NCBI GenBank assembly: GCA_030431485.1
Contig: JAUIIR010000036.1
Coordinates: 1 to 39,650, forward strand
Origin: Alphaproteobacteria bacterium
GTDB taxonomy: Bacteria; Pseudomonadota; Alphaproteobacteria; Rhodobacterales; Rhodobacteraceae
DNA length: 39,650 bases
Direction of reading: 5' to 3'
A model generated the notes under the pieces. That model was not told where the DNA came from, searched no databases, and was given only the letters and a program-made list of their open reading frames with translations. The position numbers and the translations under genes are program-made. Of this stretch, positions 2,524 to 24,817 are shown piece by piece (within the stretch, counting starts at the first letter, position 1; every line of letters starts with the position of its first letter).

Positions 2524-3687
2524 CTATCGAGAGTTCGTGGACCGGCATAGCATCCGCGCGAGGTATTGCTGGAAGTACCAGACCGTCCGTTCCTTTGGCG
2601 AAAGCCGCCCGGGCGCGGCGGCAAGCGCCCTGGCATTCTGGGCGATGCTACCAATGATCGGCTTGTCCTCGTCGTTGATCCGATCAAACCCGGCTTTCAG
2701 CTCTGCAGCATAGACCGCGCGTTCCTTCGGGTCTTCCGGCACGGCACCGGGATATGCATCCGCCCCCCAGAACACCTTAACCTGATCCGTGCCATGAGGC
2801 TGTAGCGACAGCCAGAAGGTGCGCTCTGCCACAACTGAAAAGACATGACAGGGAAAGACCGCCGACAAGACAGCCGTGTTGCGCTCTTCTTCTGTCAGAA
2901 GCGGGTTGTCGACTTCCATATCAGAATTGCGTTCATAGGATTTCCCGGGAATGCGCCCCTGCTTGTAAAGGCTGAAACCGTCGCCACCGTGCATCGCATT
3001 CGCAAGCTTGGTGGGCATGGCCGGTTCAATCGTCTTGGCATGCGCCATAAACAGGTGGTAGCCCTCGGTGAAGTTCTGAACGAGAATTTTCCAGTTGGTG
3101 TCCCATATCTCTTCCGCCCGGAACAATGTCCGGTATTTGGGCAACTGATAGTTATCCAGATGCTCGGAAAGCTTTTCCAGCCTTGGCGCCAGCGGTGCGG
3201 CATCCTGATCCAGCGAGACATAGACCCAACCCTGCCAGACCTCGACCTTGAACTGTGGCAGGCAGACGCCCTTCTTGTCGAAATTGTCGCGCATATAAGA
3301 GGCGCCGATCAGCTGACCATCCAAATTGTAGGTCCACGCATGATAGGGACAGCTGATCCGCCCCTTGATGTTTCCCGCGCCTTCCAGAAGCGTCGCCATC
3401 CGGTGGCGGCAGATGTTTGACATCGCCCGCAACGTGCCCTCCCGATCCCGCAGCACAACAACAGGATCGCGACCAATCGTTGTCGCCCGGTAATCGCCGG
3501 GGTTTTCAAACTCATCTTCGCGCCCGACACAGAACCACTCGTGATTGAAAAGCTCGTCCAGCTCCAATTCCAGAAACTCGGGCGACGTATAGATCTGTGG
3601 CGGCGTGGCCTCGGCCAGCTCATCAGGTAGCGCAGCATTATGCGCCAGTGCTTCCAGCAATTCGTCAAGAGACATGTGGGGTTTCAT
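2524..3687 (-). CDS. Rieske non-haem iron oxygenase, alpha subunit (GbcA/stachydrine-demethylase type)
   Basis: This is a 387-residue ring-hydroxylating-oxygenase alpha subunit. The Rieske [2Fe-2S] ligands are visible as C93-x-H95 (ICRHRM) and C113-x2-H116 (CPYHAW). The mononuclear iron site shows E208-x2-H211-x4-H216 (TEGYHLFMAH), and an acidic stretch NDEDKPI near the C-terminus fits the third ligand. The start is the ATG preceded by GGAGGG at 3694-3699; an upstream in-frame ATG has no ribosome binding site. It is the last gene of the leftward operon, 34 bp after soxG. Rieske enzymes linked to sarcosine oxidase usually oxidatively demethylate quaternary or tertiary amines such as glycine betaine or stachydrine, so N-demethylation is the likely reaction. 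No reductase partner gene lies in the window. Confidence 0.85.
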   Translation of the reverse strand: MKPHMSLDELLEALAHNAALPDELAEATPPQIYTSPEFLELELDELFNHEWFCVGREDEFENPGDYRATTIGRDPVVVLRDREGTLRAMSNICRHRMATLLEGAGNIKGRISCPYHAWTYNLDGQLIGASYMRDNFDKKGVCLPQFKVEVWQGWVYVSLDQDAAPLAPRLEKLSEHLDNYQLPKYRTLFRAEEIWDTNWKILVQNFTEGYHLFMAHAKTIEPAMPTKLANAMHGGDGFSLYKQGRIPGKSYERNSDMEVDNPLLTEEERNTAVLSAVFPCHVFSVVAERTFWLSLQPHGTDQVKVFWGADAYPGAVPEDPKERAVYAAELKAGFDRINDEDKPIIGSIAQNARALAAAPGRLSPKERTVWYFQQYLARMLCRSTNSR

Positions 3688-3721
3688 CTCAGACCCTCCT
3701 CCCGCCGATGAAATGGCTGTG

Positions 3722-4288
3722 TCAGGTGATCTCAAGCCCGTATTGCCGGGCTGTTTCGATCAGGATTTCGCAAAGTGAGGCCGCAAAACTGCGTGGCAGG
3801 AAAAGATTGAAGTCCTGCGCATCAAGCCAAAGTGTGACACCCACATGATGAAAGGCGGTGGAGGCCACCGATCTTTCGGGAAAGGCTCTCTCTGATAGAT
3901 CAATCGGCAGCACATGGTTCAAAAGCCGCGCCGATTGCGGCCCGCCTGCACGCAGCCAGCTGCGCGATTGCGACACATCCAGCGTTGCCCCCAGTTCGTC
4001 GGAAAGCATAACGGGTTGCTCGGTCTCACTGATCAGCCACCATTTCAGCGGTTCCACCCGCAAAAGCGTGCCATTGGCCCCAGTTGCGGCCTGTCCGGGC
4101 CCCGGCGCGGTTTGCACACCGGCTGCCTTAGCAGCCTCGGCACCGGCTTGCGCCACGGTGCCGGACCATGCGGCAAACTGCGTCACGGTACGGGCGCGGA
4201 TTTCGGTCAGTCTCACCCCGGCCGGGCCGGACACACCGGACTGCCCCGTCACTAGTAGATCGTGCAATGCGGAAAGACCGTCAGCCAT
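3722..4288 (-). CDS. soxG: Sarcosine oxidase gamma subunit
   Basis: This 188-residue protein is the fourth subunit of a heterotetrameric sarcosine oxidase. Its start overlaps the end of soxA by 8 bp, which indicates translational coupling. It carries the gamma-subunit pattern GVRLTEIRARTVTQFAAWSG near the N-terminus and LRVEPLKWWLIS in the middle. The C-terminal part VGVTLWLDAQDFNLFLPRSF also matches the family. Gamma subunits resemble the aminomethyl-transferase fold and are structural, with no cofactor motif of their own. The assignment rests on the motifs together with the gene order B-D-A-G, which is the usual one. Confidence 0.88.
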   Translation of the reverse strand: MADGLSALHDLLVTGQSGVSGPAGVRLTEIRARTVTQFAAWSGTVAQAGAEAAKAAGVQTAPGPGQAATGANGTLLRVEPLKWWLISETEQPVMLSDELGATLDVSQSRSWLRAGGPQSARLLNHVLPIDLSERAFPERSVASTAFHHVGVTLWLDAQDFNLFLPRSFAASLCEILIETARQYGLEIT

Positions 4289-7226
4289 GCATTCTTGCTC
4301 CTTCGGGGTCGAACATGTGGGGCGATACGATTTCTACCGCGACATCTCCCTTGCGAACCGGATCGGTGGCGGTCACGGTCTTGCCAGCCCAGGCCTCGTG
4401 CCCGCCTGCAATGTAGCCAAGCCCGATCCAGTGGCCCAATGCAGGCGAATGGGTCACCGCCGTGATCCAGCCTTCGCCAAATCCGGTGGCCTTGTTGGTC
4501 GCACACAGCAACGCACCGCCGTTGAAGGTCTGGCTGCGATCCTTGGGAAAGATGCCGACCAGACAGGGGCGATCCGCCCGTGTCAACTCCGGTCGCTGTC
4601 GCAGGCTGCTGCCGATGAACGGTTTCTTGGTCGATGCCATCTTGCCCAGCCCGGCATCATCAATGGTCACGCGCCCATCAAGCTCTGCACCGGTGACATG
4701 GCCCTTTTCGATTCTGAGAGCTCCAAGTGCCTCCAGCCCGTAAAGGCATCCACCGGCGGCTTTTGCGGCGGGCCATAGCAGATCCATCATTTCTTCACCG
4801 TGATCTGCGGGCACATAAAGCTCATAAGCCAGTTCCCCGGAAAAGCTGATCCGTGCAATATGCCCCTGGATCCCGCCCTTCAGCGTGACAGGGGCCACAC
4901 CCATGAATGGCAACGTCCCGTCCGAGATATCCGTCCCGTCTTCAAGGCTGGCGGCAATGACATTGCGCGCCTGCGGCCCCGCCACAGACACACCGGCCCA
5001 AAGATCCGTGACCGAGGTGACATGAACCCGCAGATCGCTCCACCGGGTCTGTAGCAGTTCTTCAAGCCATACCATCACCCGACCGGCATTGGTTGTGGTC
5101 GTGGTCATCAGGAAATCGGCCTCACCCAACCGCCAGGTTGTACCGTCATCCATCACCATGCCATCATCGCGCAGCATGATACCGTATCTGGCGCGCCCCA
5201 CGGCGAGCTTCGCAAAGGCGTTGGAATAGACACGGTTCAGAAACTCCGCCGCATCCGGCCCCTGCACGGCGATCTTACCAAGAGAGCTGACATCACAGAT
5301 GCCGACCGTATCGCGCACTGTGGTTGCTTCTCGGATATAGGCCTCTGTGATGGTTTCGCCTTCGCGGGCAAAATACCATGGCCTCTGCCAAAGCCCAGCC
5401 TCGGTCATCGTGGCCCCGTGACGAAGGTTCCAGTCATGTAGCGGCGTGCGTCGCAGCGGTTTGAAATGATGCCCCACATTGCGCCCCGCCAGCGCCCCGA
5501 TGGCAACGGGTGTATAGGGCGGGCGGAACCGTGTGGTGCCCACGGCGGGCACCTCCCGGCCAAGCGCTTCTGCCATCAGCGCAAGGCCAATAACATTGCC
5601 CATCTTGCCCTGATCGGTGGCCATGCCAAGCGTGGTGTAACGCTTCAGATGCTCAACCGATACAAACCCTTCTTGATGCGCCAGATGCACATCATCTGCG
5701 GTCACGTCATGCTGTGGATCGACAAAGGCCTTGGCCTTGGTGCCCGGTACACGCACCTCATAGACAGGCCGGATTGGGCGGATCCAGCCGCCTGGCGCAA
5801 CGACCTCGGCCTGTTCACCCATGGCAAGGCGCGCTGCGGCCACACCTGACGCGGCACAGTCGGACCGGTTCCAGATACCATTGGCCGATCCGGCCATGTG
5901 GATCGGCTCTTCGGTCGGCCCGGCCAGGAAACAGGCCAGATCGGCTTTCCATTCCGGTTTGGCCCCCCGATGTGAAGACAAGTTCACCACCGGCGACCAT
6001 CCCCCCGAAACCAGCAACAGATCACACGCCTCGCGGCTGGCCTTCGCCCAGGCTGAGCCAGAGCGGGAGGCCAGCGTCACACCCTGAACCGAGCGCCGTC
6101 CATGCGTGACCAGCGGCGCAAGGCCCGTGCGCAACTTCACGCCAGTAGGCGCGTCTGCATTGTCACGGGCATCAGCCAGAACAACCTCGGCCCCCGCTGC
6201 GGCAAGATCACAGGCCACATCAAGCGTGCTGTCATTGGTGGTCGCGATCACGACGCGCTTGCCGGGCAACACGCCAAAGCGGTTCAGATAGCTTCGCGCT
6301 GCGCTTGCCGTCATCACGCCCGGCCTGTCATTGCCGCCAAAGGCGATTGATCGCTCAATCGCCCCGGTTGCCAGAACCGTCGCCCCGGCCCGCACGGTCC
6401 AGAACCGCTGGCGCGGCAAATGCCGGTCCGGCGTGGCCAGATGATCGGTCACACGCTCCACCAACCCGGCGACACCGCTGTCATAAAGCCCGAACGCCGT
6501 GGTGCGTGTCAGAACCCGAACACCAGCGCGCTCCACCGCCGCGATCAGCGCGGTCCGTTCTGCTTCGGCCCCCGGATCGTTAATGTAGTCACCGCCAAGC
6601 TCGAAATCCTGTTCAACCAGCATCACGTCTCGACCCGCTTCTGCCGCTGTCAGCGCGGCATTCAGCCCCGCAGGGCCAGAGCCGACAACAAGGATGTCAC
6701 AGAAGGCATGAACATGATCATAGCAATCCGGGTCAGGTTCCCGGCTGGCGGTGCCCATCCCGGCGGCTTTTCGGATCAGCTTTTCATACTGCATCCAGAT
6801 ACCAGTGCCGCGCCCCCATTCAAAAGGCGGAAGACCCATGAAGGTCTTGTAGTAGAACCCGGCGGAAAAGAAGCGTCCAAAAAGCCCGTTCACCGATCCC
6901 AGATCAAACCGCACATTGGGCCATGCATTCTGCCCATGTGCCTCCAGCCCGTCATAAAGCTCTTCCATCGTGGCCTTGACGTTTGGCTCGTGTCGCGCAC
7001 CTGCGCCAACGGATACGATGGCGCCGGATTCCTCGACCCCCGCCGACATGATGCCGCGTGGCCGGTGATACTTGAAACTGCGGCCAAGGATTGTTTGGCC
7101 GTTCGCCATCAATGCCGAGGCAAGAGTGTCCCCGCCAAATCCGCCATAGGTCTTGTCATCCCACCGAAAACTGACAGGCCGGGATCGGTCGATCCGGCCC
7201 CCCTTATCCAGACGCCGTGCGGTCAT
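4281..7226 (-). CDS. soxA: Sarcosine oxidase alpha subunit
   Basis: At 981 residues this is the normal size for SoxA. The N-terminal 100 residues form the ferredoxin-like domain (YGGFGGDTLASALMANG, SFKYHRPRGI) without iron-sulfur cysteines. A dinucleotide-binding fold begins at about residue 180 (VGSGPAGLNAA), with a second nucleotide segment near ATGAIERSIAFGGNDRPG. The C-terminal third (from about residue 590) is a GcvT/aminomethyltransferase domain (SSLGKIAVQGPDAAEFLNRV, LEALGALRIEKGH) that hands the methyl group to tetrahydrofolate. With SoxB, SoxD and SoxG it oxidatively demethylates sarcosine or a similar N-methyl amino acid, giving H2O2 and 5,10-methylene-THF. It overlaps soxD by 4 bp and soxG by 8 bp. 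No folate-recycling genes are adjacent, unlike in some sox operons. Confidence 0.93.
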   Translation of the reverse strand: MTARRLDKGGRIDRSRPVSFRWDDKTYGGFGGDTLASALMANGQTILGRSFKYHRPRGIMSAGVEESGAIVSVGAGARHEPNVKATMEELYDGLEAHGQNAWPNVRFDLGSVNGLFGRFFSAGFYYKTFMGLPPFEWGRGTGIWMQYEKLIRKAAGMGTASREPDPDCYDHVHAFCDILVVGSGPAGLNAALTAAEAGRDVMLVEQDFELGGDYINDPGAEAERTALIAAVERAGVRVLTRTTAFGLYDSGVAGLVERVTDHLATPDRHLPRQRFWTVRAGATVLATGAIERSIAFGGNDRPGVMTASAARSYLNRFGVLPGKRVVIATTNDSTLDVACDLAAAGAEVVLADARDNADAPTGVKLRTGLAPLVTHGRRSVQGVTLASRSGSAWAKASREACDLLLVSGGWSPVVNLSSHRGAKPEWKADLACFLAGPTEEPIHMAGSANGIWNRSDCAASGVAAARLAMGEQAEVVAPGGWIRPIRPVYEVRVPGTKAKAFVDPQHDVTADDVHLAHQEGFVSVEHLKRYTTLGMATDQGKMGNVIGLALMAEALGREVPAVGTTRFRPPYTPVAIGALAGRNVGHHFKPLRRTPLHDWNLRHGATMTEAGLWQRPWYFAREGETITEAYIREATTVRDTVGICDVSSLGKIAVQGPDAAEFLNRVYSNAFAKLAVGRARYGIMLRDDGMVMDDGTTWRLGEADFLMTTTTTNAGRVMVWLEELLQTRWSDLRVHVTSVTDLWAGVSVAGPQARNVIAASLEDGTDISDGTLPFMGVAPVTLKGGIQGHIARISFSGELAYELYVPADHGEEMMDLLWPAAKAAGGCLYGLEALGALRIEKGHVTGAELDGRVTIDDAGLGKMASTKKPFIGSSLRQRPELTRADRPCLVGIFPKDRSQTFNGGALLCATNKATGFGEGWITAVTHSPALGHWIGLGYIAGGHEAWAGKTVTATDPVRKGDVAVEIVSPHMFDPEGARMHG

Positions 7227-7507
7227 TCTGCGCCCTCCAAAGTAGAGGCCAGTTCCGAATGCGCGGGACGCACGGAATGGATTTCATGGGTCAGCGTGTC
7301 GCGCTCAACCAGAAGCCACATGCGGCAACCGTGAACATGCTGCCAAGTCTCAACCTGCCGGCCGCACACATTGTCGCGCAGGAACACCGCATCGTGCCAG
7401 TCCTGCACCGGCGCATCGAGCGCGGGATAGATGATGGACCCGTCACCGCCATAGCTGAATTCGCTGTGGTCTCGGAGGCCGCAGAAGGGGCAGGCAAGTC
7501 TGAGCAT
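7223..7507 (-). CDS. soxD: Sarcosine oxidase delta subunit
   Basis: This 94-residue protein shows the SoxD zinc-site pattern: CPFCG at residues 6-10, and a downstream HVHGCRMW segment that supplies the remaining ligands. The motif FSYGGDGSIIYPALD is also characteristic. Delta is a small zinc-binding structural subunit of the tetramer. It lies 6 bp after soxB and overlaps soxA by 4 bp (ATGA), so B, D and A are translated as one unit. Confidence 0.93.
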   Translation of the reverse strand: MLRLACPFCGLRDHSEFSYGGDGSIIYPALDAPVQDWHDAVFLRDNVCGRQVETWQHVHGCRMWLLVERDTLTHEIHSVRPAHSELASTLEGAE

Positions 7508-7513: not shown

Positions 7514-8785
7514 CTATCCGTGCAGTTTGCAGTCCGGCCCGGCGCCGCGCTCGTCGATCTGCAGTCCACGTTCGAACCGTTTCAAGTCGAACGACGCGAT
7601 CATCGGTGCGGGCCGGTCATTGGCGATCAGGTCGGCGAACCACCAGCCCGAGGCGGGGGTGGCCTTGAACCCGCCGTAGTTCCAGCCGGCATTGAGATAG
7701 AGATTGTCGAGCGGTGTCTTGCAAATGAAATGCGTGCCATCCATCGACATGTCGACAACGCCCGACCAGTGGCGCAAAAGCTTGACCCGGCCCAAGCAGG
7801 GCAGAACCGACATCGCCGCCTCGGCCACGTCCTGGACGATGGGTAGATTGCCCCGCTGAGCATAGGACTTGTACCAGTCCAGATCGCCGCCAAAGACCAT
7901 CCCGCCCTTGTCGGATTGCGAAATGTAGAAATGCGCCCCGCCCATGCCGAAAACCACGACCTGATCCAGAAGCGGCTTCAGCGGTTCGGACACGAAAGCC
8001 TGCAACTTGTGGCTTTCGATAGGCAAGCCGCCAAGCCCAGCCATCTGCCACAGAAGCGACGTGCTGCCCGCCACGGCAAAGGCAACCTTGCCGGCGGTTA
8101 TGCGCCCGCGTGTGGTGTCCAGCGCGGTGATCCGGCCACCCTCACGCGCGAGCCCTTCAACTTTGCAGTTCTGGATAATGTCGACACCACGCGCATCTGC
8201 GGCACGGGCATAGCCCCAGACCACGGCGTCATGCCGTGCCGTGCCTGCACGTTTCTGCACAGCCGCCCCTATGATCGGAAAGCGGGCGTTCGCCGCATAG
8301 TTCAGATGCGGCACCGCGCGTTTCAGGGTTGGCAGATCCCAGATCTCGGCATCCGGTGTCCCGGTCCGCCGCATTGTGTTGTAGTTGCGCGAGGCCGCGT
8401 CAATCGCACCCGGGCTGTGCAGAAGCGCGATATGCGAGCGTTGCGAGAACATGACGTTGTAGTTCAGCTCATGGCTGAGGTTCTCCCACAGCCTGAGCGA
8501 ATGCTCGTAAAACTCGCGATTGCCCGGTTGCGCATAGTTCGACCGCACAATCGTGGTATTGCGCCCGGCATTTCCGCCACCGATCCAGCCCTTTTCGAGA
8601 ACGGCAACGTTCTGCACGCCATGGACCTTAGACAGGTAATAGGCCGTGGCAAGCCCGTGCAGTCCGCCCCCCACGATGACAACATCGTAATGGGCTTTGG
8701 GCTCCGGATCTCGCCACTGACGGGTCCAGCCCTTCTGGCCGGTTATCCCCTGCCAGAAGACATTCCAAGCGGTAAATCGGGTCAT
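7514..8785 (-). CDS. soxB: Sarcosine oxidase beta subunit (FAD/FMN flavoprotein)
   Basis: This is a 423-residue DAO-family flavoprotein. The FAD-binding Rossmann motif VVIVGGGLHGLATAYYLSK lies at about residues 35-53, followed by the SoxB-typical GGGNAGRNTTIVRSNY. The RHDAVVWGYARAADARG segment around residue 184 contains the histidine that, by analogy with characterised corynebacterial SoxB, would bind FMN covalently. The end motif LYLNAGWNYGGFKATPASG is also standard. I chose the ATG of MTRFTAWNVFWQG, which is the usual beginning of the family; upstream in-frame sequence overlaps the preceding gene. It carries the amine-oxidising site and lies 4 bp after the EutA-like gene. Confidence 0.93.
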   Translation of the reverse strand: MTRFTAWNVFWQGITGQKGWTRQWRDPEPKAHYDVVIVGGGLHGLATAYYLSKVHGVQNVAVLEKGWIGGGNAGRNTTIVRSNYAQPGNREFYEHSLRLWENLSHELNYNVMFSQRSHIALLHSPGAIDAASRNYNTMRRTGTPDAEIWDLPTLKRAVPHLNYAANARFPIIGAAVQKRAGTARHDAVVWGYARAADARGVDIIQNCKVEGLAREGGRITALDTTRGRITAGKVAFAVAGSTSLLWQMAGLGGLPIESHKLQAFVSEPLKPLLDQVVVFGMGGAHFYISQSDKGGMVFGGDLDWYKSYAQRGNLPIVQDVAEAAMSVLPCLGRVKLLRHWSGVVDMSMDGTHFICKTPLDNLYLNAGWNYGGFKATPASGWWFADLIANDRPAPMIASFDLKRFERGLQIDERGAGPDCKLHG

Positions 8786-8789
8786 TGCA

Positions 8790-9584
8790 CTAGCTGATTT
8801 TGCGCAGGTGCTTGCCGGGATGTTTGAAAATCTGTCCGAAGCCCTCAAGCTCATCCATGATCCCCGCCCGGCGCAGGCAGGACCAGAACTGCGCCTGGTT
8901 CGATGTGATCACCGGTTTGCCGGTGATCTGCTCGATCTCCTGAACCGCCGGCAGCGACCGTACGCCACCACAGCTGAGGAAAATGGCATCTGCATCAGGC
9001 TGATCAATCTCCAGCGCGAACTTCTTCCAGTATTCAGGTGTCACCAGCCCCATGTCCCAACCGCTGGCAATGTTAAGGCCCTGAATGTCCAGAACTTCAA
9101 AACCACGCTCGACCAGAAACTCGGCTTCGGCTGTGTTGATGTCATCAAGATAGGGCGTGCCGACCACCAGCTTTTTCACGCCCAGCTCATTGAGCGCATC
9201 AAGAACGCCCTGCACAAGGCACATTGGCTGGGCCCAGGGCGCACCTTTCTTGATTTCGGCCATAACCCGGTCTTCGCCGATCACGATGGAGCCCGAGGTG
9301 CAACTGTAACTGACAACATCCGGTTTCGCCTCGGGCTGAATGCGCGACGCGGCATCGGCCATATGTTCGATATGCAGTGCAAGTGTTTCGGTCGTCGTGT
9401 GGTCGTCGGTCTTCAGTCGCGTGACGTAGACGGCGACACCTTCCGGCGCCATATCCCAGAAATCGCCCTCGGCCGAGGGGTCTGTGGACATCAAGATAAA
9501 GCCAAGTTTGGCGCGGTGGAAACGCCCGCCGTCCATTTCAGGGGTACGGGGTTCGGATTTGATGATCTGACCGGGCTGAAACAT
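8790..9584 (-). CDS. EutA-like Asp/Glu racemase-superfamily enzyme (maleate isomerase / arylmalonate decarboxylase type)
   Basis: This 264-residue protein has the two-cysteine plan of the Asp/Glu racemase superfamily. The first cysteine lies in SYSCTSGSIVIGE (about residue 115) and the second in LSCGGVRSLPAVQEIE (about residue 205), followed by GKPVITSNQAQFW. This matches the maleate cis-trans isomerase / arylmalonate decarboxylase branch, which includes EutA of ectoine-utilisation clusters. The reaction could be isomerisation, racemisation or decarboxylation of an acidic intermediate; the sequence does not settle which. The start ATG overlaps the stop of the upstream M24 gene (TGATG), and soxB follows closely, so it belongs to the sarcosine-oxidase operon. 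A paralogue is at 21574. Confidence 0.78.
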   Translation of the reverse strand: MFQPGQIIKSEPRTPEMDGGRFHRAKLGFILMSTDPSAEGDFWDMAPEGVAVYVTRLKTDDHTTTETLALHIEHMADAASRIQPEAKPDVVSYSCTSGSIVIGEDRVMAEIKKGAPWAQPMCLVQGVLDALNELGVKKLVVGTPYLDDINTAEAEFLVERGFEVLDIQGLNIASGWDMGLVTPEYWKKFALEIDQPDADAIFLSCGGVRSLPAVQEIEQITGKPVITSNQAQFWSCLRRAGIMDELEGFGQIFKHPGKHLRKIS

Positions 9585-16403: not shown

Positions 16404-16483
16404 GATTTCCTCCCTGACAGATTATGTCCGCGGTGCGGAGACATCTCCGTTCCCGCGTGTGCCTTCCGCGCTATTTTAGTTGT

Positions 16484-16510: not shown

Positions 16511-16566
16511 GGCAAATGAAGATAAAAAATGTTGTCGCGCAGTTCGATGAAGAGCAAAGTGGTCTC

Positions 16567-17016: not shown

Positions 17017-17065
17017 CCGTTTTCGCCGCCCTCGGGGGATCACCCAAAAGCTGCGACCGGGGTCG

Positions 17066-18235
17066 TCAGATCACCGGCAAGTCCTGCGGGGCGCGGGTTG
17101 TCAGCAGTTCCGCGCCGCCGGAACGGACGACAATGTTCTCCTCATGCACCATCATCAGGCTCTTGCCGTAAGACAGAGAAGGTTCCAGCGTCAGTACCAT
17201 TCCATCTTCCAGCACGGTCTCGTCGAAGGCTGCGTGCGACGGCTGTTCGGTCAGTTGCATCCCCAGCCCGTGCCCCAACCGCCCGATGTCGCCACCAGAG
17301 GGGTCCATCTCGGCAATGATGCCCGACATTGCGCGAAAGAGGTCGCGGCAGGTGTTGCCGGGCCGGGCCGCTGCCAGCCCTGCCTCGGTCGCACGCCAGA
17401 GCGTGTCGTGGGCGCGGCGGGCCATGTCATCCGCGTGGCCGATGGCCCAGTTGCGGTCGAAGTCACAAAAATAGCCGTCCCAGGTGCACCCGGTGTCCAG
17501 CATGAGTATGTCACCCGCCTGAAGCGGGCGACGGTTGGGGGGCGAGATGACGTCGCCATAGCCGCCGGGCGCCGATGCGCCCACCACATACGGAGCGTCG
17601 TCCGCGCCCTGAGTCAGCGCCTCGCGCCGAAAGGTGCGAAACACATCCTCAAACGGCATCCCCTCGGCCACGATCTCGGGCACGCGGGCAAAAGTGGCCG
17701 AGCCGATTGCGCAGATATGGCGCAGCTTTTCGATCTCGGCAGGGGACTTTACCTTGCGCAGGCCCTGCACAAGACGCGTGGCGTCGGCAACGTGCAGCCC
17801 CATCAGGTTGTCCATCAGGCGTTCCCAATCGCCAAGCGGCATCCGGAGCGAGGTTTCATGGCCCTTCATCACGCCGATGGTCTCGCTGTCCCTTGCAAGC
17901 GGCCCGAGGAGGTCGGTCAAAAGACTGATGCCGTCATCTTCGGGGCAGGGGGCCGACCAGGTTCGAATATCGTCAAGCCAGGATCGTCGCATCAGTTCCG
18001 CGCCGATCTCGGGGATCACCGCGACAGGCTTGCCCGAAGCCGGGACAAAGACGAACCAGGGCCGCGTCGGGCTTTGCCAGAACAAGGTCTGGAAACCCGT
18101 GAAATAGCGCACGTCCGGTTCGGTCATCAAAAGGAGGCCGGCCAGGCCTGCCTTGGCCATCCCTGCCTGCGCCTTATCGGTGCGGGCGGCGAACTCCGTA
18201 TCTGGGAAACCCCGTTCAGGCGCTTTAGGCCGCAT
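17066..18235 (-). CDS. M24-family metallopeptidase (Xaa-Pro dipeptidase-like) with intact metal site
   Basis: This is a 389-residue pita-bread-fold hydrolase. Unlike the M24 protein at 9584, it keeps the metal ligands: two aspartates in LDTGCTWDGYFCDFDR, histidine in GHGLGMQLTE, and glutamates in LTLEPS and HEENIVV. It is therefore probably a working metalloenzyme that hydrolyses an amide or imide bond next to a cyclic or N-substituted residue. The N-terminal creatinase-like domain has RYFTGFQTLFWQSPTRPWF. The ATG overlaps the end of the diaminopropionate ammonia-lyase gene by 11 bp. It is the last gene of an M20 / ammonia-lyase / M24 operon. Substrate is unknown. Confidence 0.82.
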   Translation of the reverse strand: MRPKAPERGFPDTEFAARTDKAQAGMAKAGLAGLLLMTEPDVRYFTGFQTLFWQSPTRPWFVFVPASGKPVAVIPEIGAELMRRSWLDDIRTWSAPCPEDDGISLLTDLLGPLARDSETIGVMKGHETSLRMPLGDWERLMDNLMGLHVADATRLVQGLRKVKSPAEIEKLRHICAIGSATFARVPEIVAEGMPFEDVFRTFRREALTQGADDAPYVVGASAPGGYGDVISPPNRRPLQAGDILMLDTGCTWDGYFCDFDRNWAIGHADDMARRAHDTLWRATEAGLAAARPGNTCRDLFRAMSGIIAEMDPSGGDIGRLGHGLGMQLTEQPSHAAFDETVLEDGMVLTLEPSLSYGKSLMMVHEENIVVRSGGAELLTTRAPQDLPVI

Positions 18236-19418
18236 CGCGCCCCTCCATTATCATGGCGAAAATCGCCGGGTCGGTAACACCCTCGGACCCGATCAACAGG
18301 ACTTGCGATTGCGCATCAAGGCCAAGCTTGGCGGAAAGCTCTGCATCCGCACGCGCAGCGATCAGCGCCGCCAGACCCGCGACCGCACTTTCGCCTGCCT
18401 CGATCTCGGGATCCCCCGGCAGTGGCCGGGCCAGCAGCCGAACGGCGGGCGCCACGACGCTTTCAGGGATGGTCAGGAAGTCGGACGCTTCATCGGACAG
18501 TATTTCCCAGGCGAGCGGTGACGGTTCGCCGCAAGACAGGCCGGCCATAAGGGTCTCTTGTTCGATGGCCACAGAGGTCGGAGCGCCCGCCTTGGCGCTT
18601 TCGTAAAGACAGCCGGCCAGTTCCGGTTCGACGATTACCACACGCGGGGCGTTGTCGCGCCAATACTGGCGCAGCCCGGCGGCGACACCGGCTGCAAGAC
18701 CACCGACGCCGCCCTGCAGAAAGACGTGTGACGGGGCTTCGGCCATGGATTCGCAGATCTCGCGGGTCATCACGCCATAGCCCGCCATCACGTCACGTGG
18801 CGGTTGGGAGTAGCCAGGCCAGGACGTGTCAGAGACGACGAACCACCCGTTGGCTTCGGCCTCGCTCTTGGCGAGGTCGACCGAGTCATCATAATCGCCG
18901 TCGATGCGAATAACCGTGGCGCCCAGATCGCGCATTGCGTCAGCCCGGCCCTCGCTGACCTCGGCGTGGATGTAGATGCGGCATGGCGCGCCGAAGCGTC
19001 GGCACCCCCAGGCAAGCGACCGGCCGTGATTACCATCCGTCGCCGAGACCAGTGTGATCTTCGCCGATTCGTCGCGGTACTTGCCGTTGCGGATGTCCGC
19101 AAGGCTGACCTCTTGTCCGAGACGACTGGATATCTCGCGCTGAAGAACACGCAGGGCAGCATAGGAGCCGCCAAGTGCTTTGAAACTGCCAAGTCCGAAA
19201 CGAGGACCCTCATGCTTGTAGAGTATTCCGGCAACACCGATTCGGTTGGCCAGCGCGGAAAGCGAAACCAGCGGCGTGGGCGCATAGCCTTCCCACTCAA
19301 TGATCTCGCTTTGAGCGGTGGAGAAATCCTCGGACGTAAGAACACTGTGTGCGGCAGCGCCGTTGCTGCGGCGGGCGGCCACGTGATTGATCCTGGCGTG
19401 GGGAAGTAGGTCGGTCAT
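18225..19418 (-). CDS. dpaL: Diaminopropionate ammonia-lyase-like PLP enzyme
   Basis: This 397-residue fold-type-II PLP enzyme has the expected lysine in GLGSFKALGGSY, the ATDGNHGRSLAWG asparagine loop, and the run DYDDSVDLAKSEAEANGW, VVSDTSWPGY typical of YgeX/DpaL. The family converts D- or L-2,3-diaminopropionate to pyruvate and two ammonia. The start is the ATG of MTDLLPHARINHV, which overlaps the M20 gene by 4 bp (ATGA); upstream in-frame sequence lies inside that gene. Placed between an amidohydrolase and a peptidase, it probably works on the deacylated diamino acid. Threonine dehydratase-like activity is the main alternative. Confidence 0.85.
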   Translation of the reverse strand: MTDLLPHARINHVAARRSNGAAAHSVLTSEDFSTAQSEIIEWEGYAPTPLVSLSALANRIGVAGILYKHEGPRFGLGSFKALGGSYAALRVLQREISSRLGQEVSLADIRNGKYRDESAKITLVSATDGNHGRSLAWGCRRFGAPCRIYIHAEVSEGRADAMRDLGATVIRIDGDYDDSVDLAKSEAEANGWFVVSDTSWPGYSQPPRDVMAGYGVMTREICESMAEAPSHVFLQGGVGGLAAGVAAGLRQYWRDNAPRVVIVEPELAGCLYESAKAGAPTSVAIEQETLMAGLSCGEPSPLAWEILSDEASDFLTIPESVVAPAVRLLARPLPGDPEIEAGESAVAGLAALIAARADAELSAKLGLDAQSQVLLIGSEGVTDPAIFAMIMEGRDAA

Positions 19419-20566
19419 GCTTGATCCGTTCTTGCTGGGAGGCGGTCCCTCACCAGCGCCGCCCAGAAGTCGGAGCCGATGGGCAGGAGCGCATCGTTGA
19501 AATCGTAATTTGCGGCATGAAGCGGCTGCCCATGCGGGCCCTCGGTTCCGTTCCCAAGCAGCAGGAAACAACCCGGCACGGCGGCGGCGAAATGGGCAAA
19601 ATCCTCCGAGAAACTCATTGGCGGGCGGTCACCATCGACCGCCAAGCCTGCGTCTCTGGCCGTCCTGACTACGGCGTCGACCGGGCCTTGCGCATTGATC
19701 GCCTCGATGAATTCGGTGTTGAACGTCATCGTCGCGGTCACGCCATGGGTGGCGGCGACGCCGGCGACGATCTGGCGCATGAAATGTTCGACGGCTTTTC
19801 GGTCCTCAGGCAGACGCGCCCGGACGTCGCCTTTTAGCGTTGCATGACCCGGCAGGACGTTCCGTTGTCCGTCGGTCAGAAACTCCGTCACCGACACGAC
19901 GACCCCAGCACCAGGTGCCAGCTTGCGCGACACTACCGTTTGAAGGGCCAGGACCATCTCGGCACCGACCGTGATCGCCTCGACGCCCACATGTGGCATC
20001 GAGGCATGGCCACCCTTGCCCGCAATGGAGATCTCAAAAAGGCTTTCGGAGGCGCAGATCTGACCGACCCGGGTCGATACCTGCCCGACCGGCGCTCCCG
20101 GCAGGTTGTGGATCGCATACACCTCTTCGACCGGAAAACGATCCAGAACCCCGTCGTCGATCATCGCCCTCGCACCCAGCCCGTGTTCCTCGTTCGGCTG
20201 AAACAGGAAGACCACGGTGCCATCGAAATCGCTGCGGCGGGCCAGTTCTTCCGCCGCGCCCAGCAGCATGGTCATATGGCCGTCGTGGCCACAGGCGTGC
20301 ATGACCCCCGGATTCTCGGAGACATAGTCGTGGGTGCTTTTTTCGGTGATCGGCAAGGCGTCCATGTCAGCCCTGAGCCCGATGGCACGATTGCCGGTGC
20401 CGGCCTTGAGAACCCCGACGACGCCCACGCCCTCATGCACCTCGATGCCAAGCCCGCGCAGATGCGCCGCGACCTTCGCTTTGGTGCGGTGTTCCTGAAA
20501 GCCCAGCTCTGGATCGCGGTGGAATCCATGCCTGAGCGCAACCAGCTTCTCCGAGGTCCTATCCAT
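19415..20566 (-). CDS. M20-family amidohydrolase (hippurate hydrolase / N-acyl amino-acid deacylase type)
   Basis: This 383-residue metallohydrolase shows the M20D motifs: MHACGHDGHMTMLLGAAEEL (metal-binding cysteine/histidines), FQPNEEHGLGARAMIDDG (catalytic glutamate) and, near the end, SFSEDFAHFAAAVPG. The dimerisation domain includes KGGHASMPHVGVEAI. It would remove an N-acyl or amide group from an amino acid. GGGAGAG precedes the ATG by a short spacer. It is the first gene of the unit leading into dpaL and the M24 metallopeptidase, so its likely substrate is an N-acylated diamino acid, by inference. Confidence 0.85.
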   Translation of the reverse strand: MDRTSEKLVALRHGFHRDPELGFQEHRTKAKVAAHLRGLGIEVHEGVGVVGVLKAGTGNRAIGLRADMDALPITEKSTHDYVSENPGVMHACGHDGHMTMLLGAAEELARRSDFDGTVVFLFQPNEEHGLGARAMIDDGVLDRFPVEEVYAIHNLPGAPVGQVSTRVGQICASESLFEISIAGKGGHASMPHVGVEAITVGAEMVLALQTVVSRKLAPGAGVVVSVTEFLTDGQRNVLPGHATLKGDVRARLPEDRKAVEHFMRQIVAGVAATHGVTATMTFNTEFIEAINAQGPVDAVVRTARDAGLAVDGDRPPMSFSEDFAHFAAAVPGCFLLLGNGTEGPHGQPLHAANYDFNDALLPIGSDFWAALVRDRLPARTDQA

Positions 20567-20736
20567 GCGACTCTCCCTTGCCCGACGGGGCCGAAAGTAG
20601 ACAAGCCGGTGGATTATTGGCGTCGAATTCCGGTGTGATCGCGATCAAAATCGTCTGAATCTCCAGGTTCGGCGCCGAGTCCCCACAGGCCCAATCGCGG
20701 ATGCCGGTTTGCCACCCGCAATCAAAGACGATTGGT

Positions 20737-21480
20737 TTAGCGGTTCACAACGGCCTTTGCCGAGAACTCGGCAAGTTCTCCGCGCCAGATCTGACGACCA
20801 AAGCAGAACGGCTGATTGGCCGCGTCGCGAATGACCTGTTCCAGTTCGATCCCGGCCTGATGCGTCGTCACGCCCAAAAGCGCCGCCTCCTCCGGAGCTA
20901 TCGCGCGCATCCTGATGACCACATCGCCAACGCGCGCTGACAGGCCATAGTGATCTTCTAGCAATTGCGTGGTCGACTGTCTCAGGTCTTGCTCCAGTAG
21001 ATCCGGGCACCGACGGGCGATGACGTATTCCGTTTCAAGCAGCGTCGGATGACCATTCATTGTGAATAGCCGCGTATACTCGAAGAGTCTCTCGCCGACC
21101 GACACATCAAGGAGACCTGATAGCGTATCACTGGCCGGGATCGGCTTTGCTTGCACCACCTCGATGACCAGATCGGTGCCCAGCCTGTGGGCCTCGGCGG
21201 CGAAGCTTACGCGTTTGCTGATGTCATAGCGCACCCTCTTGGGCGAAACGAAGCGCCCTCTGCGATCTTCGCTGTAGGCCAAGCCCTCGGCCTCGATCGC
21301 TTCGAGCGCACGGCGTGCTGTCATCCGGCTGACTCCGTGCAGGTCTGCCAGCGTCCGTTCCGAAGGCAGGGCGGCATGTTCGCGCAGAACGCCGCTGTGT
21401 ATGTCACCTCGGATACTGTCGACGATCCTGCGAAAGCGGGGCGGACCGTCATCTTTTGTTGATTGGGTCATATGAGTCAC
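20737..21480 (-). CDS. GntR/HutC-family transcriptional regulator (UTRA domain)
   Basis: This 247-residue regulator has a winged helix in about residues 15-75 (LPSERTLADLHGVSRMTARR, then ALEAIEAEGLAYSEDRRGRF) and a UTRA ligand domain in about residues 95-240. The GTG at 21480 is preceded by AAGAAG at a 5-nt spacing; the ATG three codons later is the alternative. It sits between the M20/dpaL/M24 operon, in the same direction 170 bp away, and the divergent EutA-like gene. A textbook HutC-type palindrome lies in the divergent gap, so it probably represses at least the rightward pair and its own gene. Confidence 0.9.
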   Translation of the reverse strand: MTHMTQSTKDDGPPRFRRIVDSIRGDIHSGVLREHAALPSERTLADLHGVSRMTARRALEAIEAEGLAYSEDRRGRFVSPKRVRYDISKRVSFAAEAHRLGTDLVIEVVQAKPIPASDTLSGLLDVSVGERLFEYTRLFTMNGHPTLLETEYVIARRCPDLLEQDLRQSTTQLLEDHYGLSARVGDVVIRMRAIAPEEAALLGVTTHQAGIELEQVIRDAANQPFCFGRQIWRGELAEFSAKAVVNR

Positions 21481-21532
21481 GTGATCTTCTTCACCTTCTT
21501 ACTCCGATTAGGGATATGCACCAAGCCAACTC

Positions 21533-21544
21533 TGGTATATACCA
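21533..21544. promoter_or_regulatory. GntR/HutC-type operator palindrome
   Basis: TGGTATATACCA is a perfect 12-bp palindrome 29 bp before the EutA-like start at 21574 and 53 bp before the divergent gntR start. HutC-subfamily regulators bind GT-N-AC palindromes of exactly this kind (for example TGGTCTAGACCA for DasR/NagR-type proteins). It very likely is the binding site of the adjacent GntR protein. Confidence 0.7.
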
Positions 21545-21573
21545 ACTAGGAATCAGGCATTGGAGACCCTTCC

Positions 21574-22338
21574 ATGTTCGACCCCATGCATTTCGAGGAA
21601 CTGCCATTCAAGCTTGATAACGGTTTGGGTGCACGGGCGCGTTTCGGACTAATAATCCTGCAAAGCGACCAAACCGCCGAGTACGAATTTGCCACTTTGC
21701 TGCGTGGCGAGGGCGTGGCGCGGTATCATGCGCGCATTCCCAACGCGATGGAGGTTACGCCGGAAACGCTCCGGGATATGGAACGGGACATGCCGGTGGC
21801 AGCCGCGCTACTGCCCCCGTCGTTCGGATTTGACGCCATCGGCTATTGCTGCACGTCGGGCGCGACCATGATCGGCGAAGGTCGGGTGGATGAAATCATC
21901 CGCAGCATCCATCCGGGTGCGAAAACCACCAACCCGCTGACCGCCTGCAAGGCAGCGTTAGCCGCGCTTGGCGCACGGCGTTTCGCGCTCGTCACGCCTT
22001 ATCCTCCGTCGGTTACATCTAAAATGCAGCGCAACCTCGCGGATGCAGGGTTCGAAACGGGTGCGGTGGCCTCGTTCAACCAGTCCGACGACTTCACCGT
22101 CGCGCGGATCAGTTCCGACAGCATCCTTGACGCCATTCTTGCGGTTGGTCGGCGCGAGCGCTGCGCTGCGGTCTTTGTCTCCTGTACCAGCCTGCGTGTT
22201 CTACCCGTGATCGCCGAAGCCGAGAAGCAAATTGGCAAACCGGTGATCTCGAGCAATCAGGCCACGGCCTGGCACCTGATGCGCCTCGTCGGGCTCGGCG
22301 ACCGGCCCGAAGGGGCCGGCCGCCTTTTTCAGCACTGA
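21574..22338 (+). CDS. Second EutA-like Asp/Glu racemase-superfamily enzyme
   Basis: This 254-residue protein has the same two-cysteine plan as the paralogue at 8790: GYCCTSGATMIGE around residue 92 and VSCTSLRVLPVIAEAE around residue 206, followed by GKPVISSNQATAW. Both catalytic cysteines are therefore present. GGAG lies 8 nt before the ATG. It belongs to the maleate isomerase / arylmalonate decarboxylase / EutA group, with isomerase, racemase or decarboxylase activity on an acidic substrate. It is followed 28 bp later by the flavoprotein gene and is controlled by the GntR operator just upstream. Confidence 0.78.
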   Translation: MFDPMHFEELPFKLDNGLGARARFGLIILQSDQTAEYEFATLLRGEGVARYHARIPNAMEVTPETLRDMERDMPVAAALLPPSFGFDAIGYCCTSGATMIGEGRVDEIIRSIHPGAKTTNPLTACKAALAALGARRFALVTPYPPSVTSKMQRNLADAGFETGAVASFNQSDDFTVARISSDSILDAILAVGRRERCAAVFVSCTSLRVLPVIAEAEKQIGKPVISSNQATAWHLMRLVGLGDRPEGAGRLFQH

Positions 22339-22366
22339 GTTCAACCAATGCGGCAGGAAAGTGATC

Positions 22367-24817
22367 ATGTCGAAGCCCCTACCCAGTCATGCACAAGTCG
22401 TCATCATCGGTGGTGGCATCCACGGCTGCTCCGTTGCCTATCATCTTGCCAAGGAGGGCTGGAAGGATGTCGTGTTGCTGGAGCGCAAACAGCTTACCTC
22501 GGGCACCACATGGCATGCGGCGGGCCTGGTCGGCCAGTTGCAGGGCAGCCATGCGACGACGGCTTTCGCGAAGTACGGGATCGAGCTTTTGCAGGATATC
22601 GAGGCCGAGACGGGTCAGAATCCCGGCTACCGCCGCTCTGGCTCCATCTCCATCGCGATAAACGACGAGCGGCTGGCCGAGCTGAAGCGCAAGGCGGATT
22701 TCGCCTCGCTCTTCGGTATCGAGGCCAGCTATCTGACCGCAGCCGAAATCGCTGAGCGCTGGTCGTTGATGAACCCGGAAGGCGTGCTCGGCGGTATCTA
22801 CATGCCGAGCGACGGTTCGGCCAACCCAATCGACCTGACCACCGCCCTGGCCAAGGGCGCGCGAATGCACGGGGCGCAGATCTTCGAGCATGTCAAGGTC
22901 GAGGCGGTCGAGGTCGAGGGCGGCCGCGCGCGAGCCGTGCGCACCGAACAAGGCCGCATCACCGCCGATGTCGTGGTGAACTGCGGTGGCATGTGGGCGC
23001 GCGAGTTGGGCCGACAGAACGGTGTGGGCGTTCCGCTTCATGCGTGTGAACACTATTACCTCGTCACCGAACCGATTGCCGATCTGCCTAGCGACCTGCC
23101 GGTTCTGCGTTCCTACTGCGACGGCACTTATTGGAAGGAGGATGCGGGCAAGCTGCTCTTCGGCTTCGCCCATTTTCACCCCAAAGCCTGGGGAATGAAC
23201 GGCATTCCGGAATCCTTCTGTTTCGACAGCCTGCCCTTCATCGAAGAGGATGTGATGGATGTGCTGGAACTGGCGATGAACCGTGTTCCGATCCTTCAGG
23301 ACGTCGGCATCCGCACCTTCTTCAACGGGCCGGAAAGCTACTCCCACGATGGCCGGTTCACGCTGGGAGAAGCGCCTGACGTCAAGGACTACTATGTCCT
23401 GGCCGGGGTGAACTCCACGGGCATCCAGTCGGGCCCCGGCGCGGGCCGGGCGCTCGCGCAGTGGATCATGAAGGGCCATCCGCCGATGGACCTCAGCGAG
23501 ATGGACCCCAAGCGCTGCGAGGAATTCCAGACCCGCGATCCCTATCTGCGCGAACGCTGCGCCGAAACACTGGTGCTGACCTACGCGATGCACTGGCCGG
23601 GCCGTCAGCGCGAAAGCGCGCGCAACCTGCGGCGGACGCCGTTCTATCACGCGATGAAGGCGCGCGGCGCCTGCTATGCCGAGGTGCAGGGCTGGGAGCG
23701 CCCTGGCTGGTTCGCGCCTGAAGGCGTGACGCCGGAATACGACTACAGCTTTGGCCGCCCGAGCTGGTTCCCCCATGCGCATGCCGAACAGAAAGCCGCG
23801 CGTGAGGCGGTGGCGATGTTCGACTATTCGATGCTGGGCAAGCTGATGGTCGAGGGCAAGGATGCCGAGGCCTTCCTGCAACGTGTCTGCACAAACGATA
23901 TGGCGCTGCCGGTGGGCCGGGTCGCCTATACGCTGATGCTGAACGAACGCGGCGGCATCGAAAGCGATGTAACCGTCGCGCGCCATGCCCAGGACGCCTT
24001 CATGGTGATGAGTTCGATCTCGCATACACGGCGCGATTACCTGCATCTGCGCGATGCACTTCTCCCGGATGAGGATGTGCGCCTGCGCGATGCCACCACC
24101 GCCTATGGCGTGCTGTCCCTCGCCGGACCGAAATCGCGTGACCTGTTGGCAAAAGTGACAGAGACCGACGTCTCGAACGAAGGCTTTCCCTTCAACAGCC
24201 TTCGGCATTTCCATATCGGGCACGCGCCGGTCTTTGCACAGCGCCTGTCCTACACGGGCGAGCTTGGATGGGAAGTCTTCGTGACACCCGATTTCGCCGA
24301 ACATGTCTTCGAGGTTCTGGTCGAGGCCGGTGCGGGTCTGGGGCTGAAGCTGGCCGGGAGCGAGGCACTGAACGCGCTACGTATCGAGAAGGGATTCCTT
24401 CACTGGGGCCATGACATGGCCTACAGCGATGCGCCGCACCAGATGGGTCTTGGCTTTGCCTGCAGGCCGAACAAGGAAATCGCGTTTGTCGGCCGGGACG
24501 CCTATCTCGAACGCAAGGCCGCGCAGGCCGGGCCGTTCCTGTGTTTCGTCAAGCTAACCGATCCCAGTCCCCTTCTGCTTCACAACGAGCCAATCCTGCG
24601 CAACGGCAAGGTTGCGGGCTACGTGACGGCGGGCGCGTGGTCATCTTCCCAAGGGGTAGCGGTCGGACTGTGCCTCTTGTCATCACCGGATGGCGAGCCT
24701 GGCAGGCTGGCGTTGGCCAACGGACGCTATACCGTCTTGGTTGAAGGTCGGGAAATCGCCGCAGACATTAGCCTGTCTCCATTCTACGACCCGAAAAGCA
24801 TGCGAATGCTGAGCTAA
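22367..24817 (+). CDS. Dimethylglycine/sarcosine dehydrogenase-like flavoprotein (FAD oxidoreductase-GcvT fusion)
   Basis: This is an 816-residue two-part enzyme. The N-terminal half is a DAO-type flavoprotein with VVIIGGGIHGCSVAYHLAKEG and SGTTWHAAG, where the histidine fits the covalent FAD attachment of dimethylglycine and sarcosine dehydrogenases. The C-terminal half (from about residue 470) is a GcvT/aminomethyltransferase domain (FDYSMLGKLMVEGKDAEAFL, LNALRIEKGF). It would oxidise an N-methyl group and transfer the one-carbon unit to tetrahydrofolate. AGGAAA precedes the ATG at 22367 by about 7 nt; a GTG two codons earlier is less well placed. It is the second gene of the GntR-controlled pair and duplicates the chemistry of SoxBDAG. 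Confidence 0.88.
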   Translation: MSKPLPSHAQVVIIGGGIHGCSVAYHLAKEGWKDVVLLERKQLTSGTTWHAAGLVGQLQGSHATTAFAKYGIELLQDIEAETGQNPGYRRSGSISIAINDERLAELKRKADFASLFGIEASYLTAAEIAERWSLMNPEGVLGGIYMPSDGSANPIDLTTALAKGARMHGAQIFEHVKVEAVEVEGGRARAVRTEQGRITADVVVNCGGMWARELGRQNGVGVPLHACEHYYLVTEPIADLPSDLPVLRSYCDGTYWKEDAGKLLFGFAHFHPKAWGMNGIPESFCFDSLPFIEEDVMDVLELAMNRVPILQDVGIRTFFNGPESYSHDGRFTLGEAPDVKDYYVLAGVNSTGIQSGPGAGRALAQWIMKGHPPMDLSEMDPKRCEEFQTRDPYLRERCAETLVLTYAMHWPGRQRESARNLRRTPFYHAMKARGACYAEVQGWERPGWFAPEGVTPEYDYSFGRPSWFPHAHAEQKAAREAVAMFDYSMLGKLMVEGKDAEAFLQRVCTNDMALPVGRVAYTLMLNERGGIESDVTVARHAQDAFMVMSSISHTRRDYLHLRDALLPDEDVRLRDATTAYGVLSLAGPKSRDLLAKVTETDVSNEGFPFNSLRHFHIGHAPVFAQRLSYTGELGWEVFVTPDFAEHVFEVLVEAGAGLGLKLAGSEALNALRIEKGFLHWGHDMAYSDAPHQMGLGFACRPNKEIAFVGRDAYLERKAAQAGPFLCFVKLTDPSPLLLHNEPILRNGKVAGYVTAGAWSSSQGVAVGLCLLSSPDGEPGRLALANGRYTVLVEGREIAADISLSPFYDPKSMRMLS

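Follow-up and report, generated by a model that had tools for sequence, protein, structure and literature searches.

A candidate plasmid-borne catabolic island combining an Ehu-type importer, demethylation genes and a diaminopropionate ammonia-lyase

Gene content and transcription units

We analyzed a contig (JAUIIR010000036.1; C129 in our numbering) of a 4.66 Mb alphaproteobacterial genome assembled into 164 contigs. By the window we mean this whole stretch, positions 1–39650. An open reading frame (ORF) listing combined with family searches delimits 20 intact genes spanning 2524–24817, here called the island, which may encode a catabolic pathway. Genes were identified by Pfam and NCBIfam profile searches, and bit scores were compared with the curated cut-offs. 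The inventory of an initial annotation made from the sequence alone holds, as every gene named in it is an intact ORF at or near the reported position and has a Pfam or NCBIfam identification. Transcription units were assigned from strand and spacing. The proposed division into four units stands, but not the idea of one regulator for each. There are three regulators (LysR, AsnC and GntR-UTRA); the helix-turn-helix (HTH) gene at 1271–2338 (+) is part of a plasmid recombinase module and not an island regulator.

One inferred unit would run on the minus strand in the order M24_1-EutA1-SoxB-SoxD-SoxA-SoxG-Rieske. M24_1 (9584–10726; PF00557/PF01321) is a putative metal-free pita-bread hydrolase with a creatinase-like active site. 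EutA1 (8790–9584) is a two-cysteine protein of the Asp/Glu-racemase/AMDase superfamily (PF17645; 178.5 bits for TIGR02990, cut-off 318). Among the subunits of the putative sarcosine oxidase, SoxB (beta; 7514–8854) and SoxA (alpha; 4281–7226) pass their subfamily cut-offs (602.1 bits for TIGR01373, cut-off 529.45, and 1229.5 bits for TIGR01372, cut-off 1164). SoxD (delta; 7223–7507; four Cys) and SoxG (gamma; 3722–4288) are below theirs (97.8 bits for TIGR01374, cut-off 116.5, and 63.4 bits for TIGR01375, cut-off 143.95), and the positions of their genes, between SoxB, SoxA and Rieske, fit a heterotetrameric enzyme (SoxBDAG). The last gene encodes the alpha subunit of a Rieske non-haem iron oxygenase (2524–3735; PF00355, PF00848). 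SoxB probably starts near 8785, because two annotated orthologues measure 1272 bases. Divergent from this unit is a GcvA-like LysR regulator gene (10857–11735, +; PF00126, PF03466; 181.2 bits for PRK11139, cut-off 288).

A second minus-strand unit would comprise SBP-EhuC-EhuD-EhuA-PALP490, with an Lrp/AsnC regulator gene divergent from it (16480–17016, +; NCBIfam Lrp-type matches, the best at 71.0 bits, below the cut-off of 233). The ATPase (EhuA type, 13348–14190) and both permeases (EhuD type, 14165–14830; EhuC type, 14834–15499) pass the curated Ehu cut-offs, with 402.4 bits for TIGR03005 (345.4), 273.3 for TIGR03003 (205.2) and 244.2 for TIGR03004 (196.95), respectively. The EhuB-like substrate-binding protein (SBP; 15561–16403) is slightly under the EhuB cut-off (173.7 bits for TIGR02995, cut-off 190.9). 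PALP490 (11792–13264) is a cysteine-synthase-like fold-type-II pyridoxal phosphate enzyme (PF00291; 82.5 bits for TIGR01139, cut-off 350.95), in which HK at 110–111 and PSTGN at 138–142 are invariant among 13 sequences.

The remaining genes would form two units around a GntR-UTRA regulator gene (20737–21480, −; PF00392, PF07702). Downstream of it on the same strand lies M20-DAPAL-M24_2, encoding an M20 amidohydrolase of the aminoacylase/DoeB2-like kind (19415–20566; 303.1 bits for TIGR01891, above 153.75), a diaminopropionate ammonia-lyase (DAPAL; 18225–19571; 483.6 bits for PRK08206, above 276) and M24_2, a prolidase-like hydrolase (17066–18235; PF00557). Divergent from the same regulator gene is EutA2-DMGDH on the plus strand, encoding a second two-cysteine EutA-like protein (21574–22338; PF17645; 189.8 bits for TIGR02990, cut-off 318) and a dimethylglycine dehydrogenase (DMGDH)-like flavoprotein with DAO and GCV_T domains (22361–24817; PF01266, PF16350, PF01571). 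Listed ORFs overlap by 1–26 bases at M24_1/EutA1, SoxD/SoxA, SoxA/SoxG, SoxG/Rieske, EhuA/EhuD and DAPAL/M24_2. The listed DAPAL ORF begins inside the M20 gene; its true start is probably Met52, near 19418. A promoter/terminator scan of 16350–21650 stayed near chance (2 found versus 1.1 expected; 4 versus 4.8).

Predicted functions of the island proteins

The best solved relative of M24_1 is creatinase 1chm (E 7e-26, 94.5 bits), with DoeA at E 3e-17. In an alignment with creatinase and EutD, residues R45, H221, D253, R313 and D342 are invariant in 44 M24_1 proteins. They correspond to creatinase R64, H232, E262, R335 and E358 (counted on the solved chain, with an offset of one), which we take to be the carboxylate-binding Arg pair, the catalytic His and the amidinium-binding Glu residues of the active site. 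Thus R, H and R are kept and both Glu are replaced by Asp in all 44 proteins. Glu is retained at both positions in 7/7 creatinases compared (R, H, E, R, E), and two EutD proteins have V, H, S or C, Y, M. The M24_1 signature also appears in six relatives of 41–45% identity, some belonging to the window's own family and others to rhizobia and Paraburkholderia. The M24 metal ligands (D, D, H, E, E) are absent, their places being taken by C, G, R, D and G. Given the absent ligands and the invariant creatinase-like residues, the best reading of M24_1 is that it would hydrolyze a carboxylated amidine or guanidine without a metal, in a pocket unlike that for creatine. If so, its Asp/Asp pair would be a third way of arranging the active site in the metal-free creatinase/ectoine-hydrolase fold. 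Whether M24_1 is a true creatinase was tested by its residues and by a tree; both Glu are Asp, and the sequence similarity is only distant. A resemblance of DoeA to creatinase is described in PMC3187862. In the class, 6 of 385 genomes, the window's own among them, have an M24_1 relative at E 1e-120 or better. M24_2 and 4/4 of its relatives retain all five metal ligands, and by these residues M24_2 is a metal-type prolidase relative. The M24 tree had weak deep branches and long branches meeting, and no claim on branching was drawn from it.

Both EutA proteins display the two-cysteine pattern of racemases in the Asp/Glu racemase superfamily: EutA1 Cys95 and Cys205 are present in 80/80 relatives, and both Cys in 18/18 relatives of EutA2. 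According to PMC4996985, the racemases of the superfamily have a second Cys where AMDases have Gly74. The EutA tree (long branches, many open forks) was not used, only the residue counts.

DAPAL misses the stricter TIGR03528 cut-off (325.7 versus 532.25 bits). It keeps K77, D120 and D189 of the solved DAPAL 4d9g (by alignment; numbers counted on the 4d9g chain), presumably the E. coli enzyme with these residues in catalytic roles. The M20 protein scores 310.6 bits, below 550, with the model of the N-acetyl-diaminobutanoate deacetylase DoeB2 (NF038260). Together, DAPAL and M20 point to an N-acyl-2,3-diaminopropionate (N-acyl-DAP) as a putative intermediate, with pyruvate and ammonia as products.

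The nearest solved relative of SBP is EhuB 2q88. Its pocket was compared with that of Sinorhizobium medicae EhuB (locus L103), which is close in sequence to 2q88, across an SBP family of 27 proteins. The ectoine pocket (Glu, Phe, Tyr, Phe, Arg), in which the Arg reportedly binds the carboxylate (Hanekop et al. 2007), is altered in this family. The Arg is kept in 27/27, the cage residues F, Y and F have become W (26/27), W (27/27) and Y (27/27), and the Glu is Val or Ile throughout (27/27). Loss of the acidic partner and a larger cage would fit a ligand with a methyl-bearing cationic nitrogen.

The island has a Rieske oxygenase, a DMGDH-like protein and SoxBDAG, the three enzyme kinds used on glycine betaine. 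The nearest solved structure to the Rieske protein is carnitine monooxygenase CntA (E 3.3e-35). The [2Fe-2S] motif C-x-H...C-x-x-H and the motif NFTEGYH....H are both present in 15/17 relatives, and the Glu of the latter aligns to a Glu in CntA. With the glycine betaine monooxygenase model GbcA (NF058607) it scores 132.3 bits, the cut-off being 670. The nearest solved relative of the DMGDH-like protein is dimethylglycine dehydrogenase 4p9s (E 1.2e-127).

Plasmid setting and recurrence in other bacteria

A recombinase and HTH_13 gene pair at 139–2338 lies beside the left edge of the island. The region 1–2600 has matches in 176 plasmid records, and in 69 of these at least 80% of it is covered. 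In Dinoroseobacter shibae pDSHI04, a recombinase and a second gene in the same layout as this pair adjoin repA, so the island appears to adjoin a plasmid replication module. On the other side, type IV secretion genes (a VirB4-like ATPase and two SLT transglycosylases) occupy 33037–38263. Of the 168 plasmid records matched by the region 24800–39650, 113 are predicted to be conjugative, and none reaches 80% coverage; about 25172–25961 lies a further conserved plasmid stretch. Given the recombinase/repA layout and the plasmid matches of both flanks, we read the island as probable cargo of a conjugative plasmid of roseobacter type. In a near-identity search no plasmid record held 80% of 2000–26000; the best-ranked covered 29% (Aminobacter sp. 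SR38) and 23% (Roseovarius pelagicus). Repeats in 1–2600 and 24700–25400 included nothing readable as a transposon end.

The initial annotation had suggested looking for the same genes together in other genomes, and such co-occurrence was found. In R. pelagicus HL-MP18, 19 of the 20 genes lie together as a single block on a plasmid, in a different order and at 57–88% identity, which goes beyond chance; PALP490 is the one gene unmatched there. Aminobacter sp. SR38 pSR3 has M20, a more distant DAPAL (37%), AsnC (42%), two SBPs, EhuCDA, LysR, M24_1, EutA1, SoxBDAG and Rieske. Its Rieske gene is followed by genes for a 2Fe-2S protein and an FAD oxidoreductase, which could be partners of the oxygenase. 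Beside this set, pSR3 also has a sister module (L010 7873–15919; L numbers denote our loci) with LysR, an ABC importer, EutA2-like, M24_2-like, M20 and cystathionine beta-lyase genes, possibly for another substrate. A broken copy lies on Parasedimentitalea marina pW43B (L012 11240–19016), where M24_1, EutA1 and SBP are in several pieces and LysR is in two.

We further scanned GTDB genomes with a five-sequence EutA1 alignment and used the best 80 of 326 relatives. Each locus extends no further than 10 kb in either direction and contains EutA1 by construction; matches were taken at ≥45% identity and with coverage of more than half the query. At least 12 of the 20 families are present in 20 of these 80 loci, representing 13 of 60 taxon groups. 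Individual families occur in 34 (M24_1), 22 (M20), 22 (M24_2), 17 (importer), 14 (DMGDH), 13 (DAPAL), 13 (SoxB), 11 (Rieske), 11 (EutA2) and 7 (PALP490) of the 60 groups. Among the 17 loci with SoxA, M24_1 is present in 16 and Rieske in 14. In an unsupervised ORF clustering of the 80 loci, every cluster from c0 to c18, with between 64 and 9 loci each, is an island family. The simple ORF caller also made opposite-strand ORFs over island genes (c19, 9 loci, over EutA1), which were not counted as families. Genome titles in the scan include Leisingera, Roseovarius, Ruegeria and gammaproteobacterial metagenome-assembled genomes (MAGs).

Several loci carry additional genes. A BisC/TorA-type S/N-oxide reductase lies directly behind PALP490 in L078 (15348–17699), with its cluster found in 3 loci, and in L107 the importer, PALP490 and such a reductase stand together. 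A PhyH dioxygenase is beside the core in L078 and belongs to a 6-locus cluster. In L064 (649–8649, a gammaproteobacterial MAG), M24_1-EutA1 is preceded by P450, glutamine-synthetase-like, aldehyde dehydrogenase, ferredoxin, reductase, MppR-like and MarR genes; L034 also has a P450 by the core. The presence of a non-homologous PhyH or P450 beside the core elsewhere points to oxygenation as a common step and to an exchangeable oxygenase. In uncultured proteobacteria, six EutA1 relatives of 68–69% identity (L074, L079, L080, L081, L083 and L093, the last titled Pelagibacterales) are without other island families and sit between a MacB-like gene cluster and a NUDIX-like one (domains tested in L074 only).

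Proposed pathway, alternatives and known systems

Our preferred reading, held tentatively, is that this plasmid-borne island encodes a catabolic route resembling that of ectoine, shifted to DAP and preceded by N-demethylation. The initial annotation had proposed a pathway for a diamino acid, N-methylated and/or N-acylated, or for a cyclic osmolyte. The several demethylases and the DAPAL with conserved catalytic residues do fit an N-methylated diamino-acid compound, but M24_1 is creatinase-like rather than ectoine-hydrolase-like, and M24_2 is prolidase-like. The substrate, the order of steps and the service of all units in one pathway are what we infer from sequence comparison. In the proposed scheme, the compound taken up by the Ehu-type ABC importer would be a zwitterion that carries both a carboxylate and an N-substituted (methylated) cation or amidinium. 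Its N-methyl groups would be removed by the Rieske oxygenase, the DMGDH-like flavoprotein and SoxBDAG, the latter two passing C1 units to folate, and EutA1 and EutA2 would adjust stereochemistry. Amidine or amide C–N bonds would be cut by the creatinase-like, metal-free M24_1 and the metallo-enzyme M24_2, and M20 would deacylate an N-acyl diamino acid. Finally, DAPAL (and perhaps PALP490) would form pyruvate and ammonia by beta-elimination from DAP or a closely similar compound. If this is true, roseobacters and other proteobacteria with the set or its core would have in common a pathway, so far undescribed, for a nitrogen-rich compound with N-methyl groups, and the binding protein, M24_1 and DAPAL would make the substrate findable by ligand screening.

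A bolder proposal, which we regard as unlikely, is that the substrate is a cyclic amidine or guanidine of the DAP series, both N-methylated and carboxylated, that has gone unrecognized as an osmolyte in the sea or as a metabolite of a host. Such a compound would be a methylated relative of ectoine, one carbon shorter. M24_1, with the racemase EutA1 as a partner, would then found a new family of metal-free amidinohydrolases between creatinase and ectoine hydrolase.

The initial annotation had joined the four units, and they are indeed contiguous in some loci but stand apart in other genomes. Mainly because of the contiguous loci, we take the units to belong together; as they occur separately elsewhere, a single pathway is likely, not proven. 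The alternative is that two or more separate pathways lie side by side, gathered on one plasmid since both use similar nutrients. One would be a LysR-controlled, creatine-like route for an N-methylated amidino acid or betaine (M24_1, EutA1, SoxBDAG, Rieske), and the other an AsnC/GntR-controlled route for an N-acyl-DAP compound (Ehu importer, M20, DAPAL, M24_2, with or without EutA2-DMGDH). We consider this a real possibility, though doubtful. In L022, and in part in L057 and L031, the LysR unit is present but the Ehu importer is not; L055 and L067 have the importer, M20, DAPAL and M24_2 but lack Sox, Rieske and DMGDH. Yet EutA1 is still present in L055 and L067, and M24_1 in L055; L026 and L047 have the importer, the LysR unit and M20-DAPAL-M24_2 side by side; R. 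pelagicus holds its 19 genes together despite their different order; and at least one demethylase is present in 22 of 26 importer-bearing loci.

Linkage was also examined in 120 genomes of the same family (119 after leaving out the window's own), with ortholog sets defined by identity cut-offs of our choice and a limited number of candidates scored per genome. DAPAL and M24_2, present in 12 and 14 genomes, coincide in 11 (P 4e-12), and no other pair among M24_1, DAPAL, M24_2, SBP and PALP490 is significant in the 119 genomes. M24_1 and DAPAL share 3 genomes (P 0.08), and M24_1-SBP and SBP-DAPAL share none. M24_1 and EutA1 also share none at the threshold, an underestimate, as G038 (L116) has a split EutA1, below the threshold, beside M24_1 and LysR. 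The EutA1-DMGDH association (P 0.017, uncorrected; DMGDH counts may be too low, since at most 8 candidates per genome were scored) comes from the single genome G075. There AsnC-SBP-EhuCDA-EutA1 form one block, with M24_2 and DMGDH about 230 kb off on the same contig. A Rieske orthologue at E 1e-100 is found in 1 of the 120 genomes, the window's own. Moreover, EutA1 is without any other island family in 16 of the 80 scanned loci (several on short contigs), and demethylases are absent from the otherwise similar loci L055, L067 and L082 (part in view). Apart from the DAPAL-M24_2 link, these observations weigh against our preferred reading. Considering the weak linkage, the gene set is patchy and modular, and because only DAPAL and M24_2 are tightly linked, two adjacent pathways stay a serious rival.

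Other explanations appear less probable. The substrate might be an S- or N-oxide amino-acid derivative, such as an N-acyl cysteine conjugate sulfoxide, with PALP490 as lyase and M20 as deacylase. The reductase behind PALP490 in L078 and L107 and the M20 and cystathionine beta-lyase genes of the pSR3 sister module speak for this improbable option. However, no BisC/TorA-type reductase is among the 20 genes, PALP490 is unmatched in the R. pelagicus and Aminobacter stretches, and the demethylases and DAPAL would be left unexplained. That the island is a decaying passenger without function in this host seems highly improbable. The broken copy on pW43B means that the island does decay in some hosts, but all 20 genes of the window are intact ORFs with overlapping starts, and catalytic residues are conserved where tested.

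We also see very little chance that the island is an ectoine/hydroxyectoine, creatine or glycine-betaine pathway in an unusual arrangement, although EhuA, EhuC, EhuD, SoxA and SoxB are above curated cut-offs. These known pathways were set aside since the M24 proteins, both EutAs, SBP, Rieske and DAPAL all fail the curated ectoine or betaine models. M24_1 and M24_2 score 84.2 and 60.0 bits with the ectoine hydrolase EutD/DoeA model (TIGR02993, cut-off 613), and DAPAL scores 69.1 bits with EutB (413.35). The genome has a separate EutD-like gene on contig C102 (585.5 bits, just under 613) and a creatinase homologue of 65% identity on contig C10; therefore the island is probably neither the ectoine nor the creatine pathway of the host. 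A loose EutD search matched in all 14 control genomes, none above the cut-off, and only the 585.5-bit match was used. A creatinase match at E 1e-60 is present in 85 of the 120 family genomes. In the literature searched by title and abstract start, which covered few subscription papers, the gene set was not described among the matches listed. A full-text search found no paper joining diaminopropionate ammonia-lyase, sarcosine oxidase and ectoine, and for norzooanemonin there was no degradation paper among the matches listed. A Colwellia genomic island reportedly contains a heterotetrameric sarcosine oxidase (PMC3691474).

Among characterized systems, the ectoine clusters ehuABCD-eutABCDE of Sinorhizobium meliloti and uehABC-eutABCDE of Ruegeria pomeroyi (PMC5924519) have in common with the island an Ehu-type importer, a EutA-type protein, an M24 hydrolase, a deacylase step and an AsnC gene divergent from the importer. 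The island differs in that its M24 proteins fail the EutD model, DAPAL replaces the diaminobutyrate transaminase, nothing matches at the level of EutB, three demethylase systems are added and the pocket of the binding protein is changed. The creatine pathway with creatinase and heterotetrameric sarcosine oxidase, reported for Roseobacter denitrificans among others in PMC8864220, shares a metal-free M24 enzyme adjoining SoxBDAG. Here, however, both amidinium-binding Glu are Asp, and EutA1 and Rieske belong to the putative operon. Glycine betaine demethylation (GbcAB, DMGDH or DgcAB, SoxBDAG) employs the same three kinds of demethylases, but the Rieske protein is far under the GbcA cut-off, and the island has extra hydrolases, racemase-type proteins and DAPAL. 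DAPAL has the catalytic residues of 4d9g but differs in its setting, a catabolic island that also holds M20 and M24 genes. Related clusters are on rhizobial plasmids of Mesorhizobium amorphae (L118), Rhizobium sp. CCGE532 (L119) and Mesorhizobium sp. 131-2-5 (L120), which share the Ehu importer (SBP 50–64% identical), SoxBDAG, M24 proteins and an amidase or M20. Sarcosine oxidase beside ectoine-type genes is thus not unique to the island, contrary to what was initially assumed. In place of DAPAL, these plasmids have a Thr/Ser dehydratase and a beta-eliminating-lyase-related protein, or methylaspartate ammonia-lyase, and no Rieske gene is annotated in the stretches shown. The set is real, recurrent and mechanistically readable, and it is a variant of a catabolic-island type already known; the window seems to be one representative of a wider group of plasmid islands that would degrade N-methylated amino-acid derivatives.

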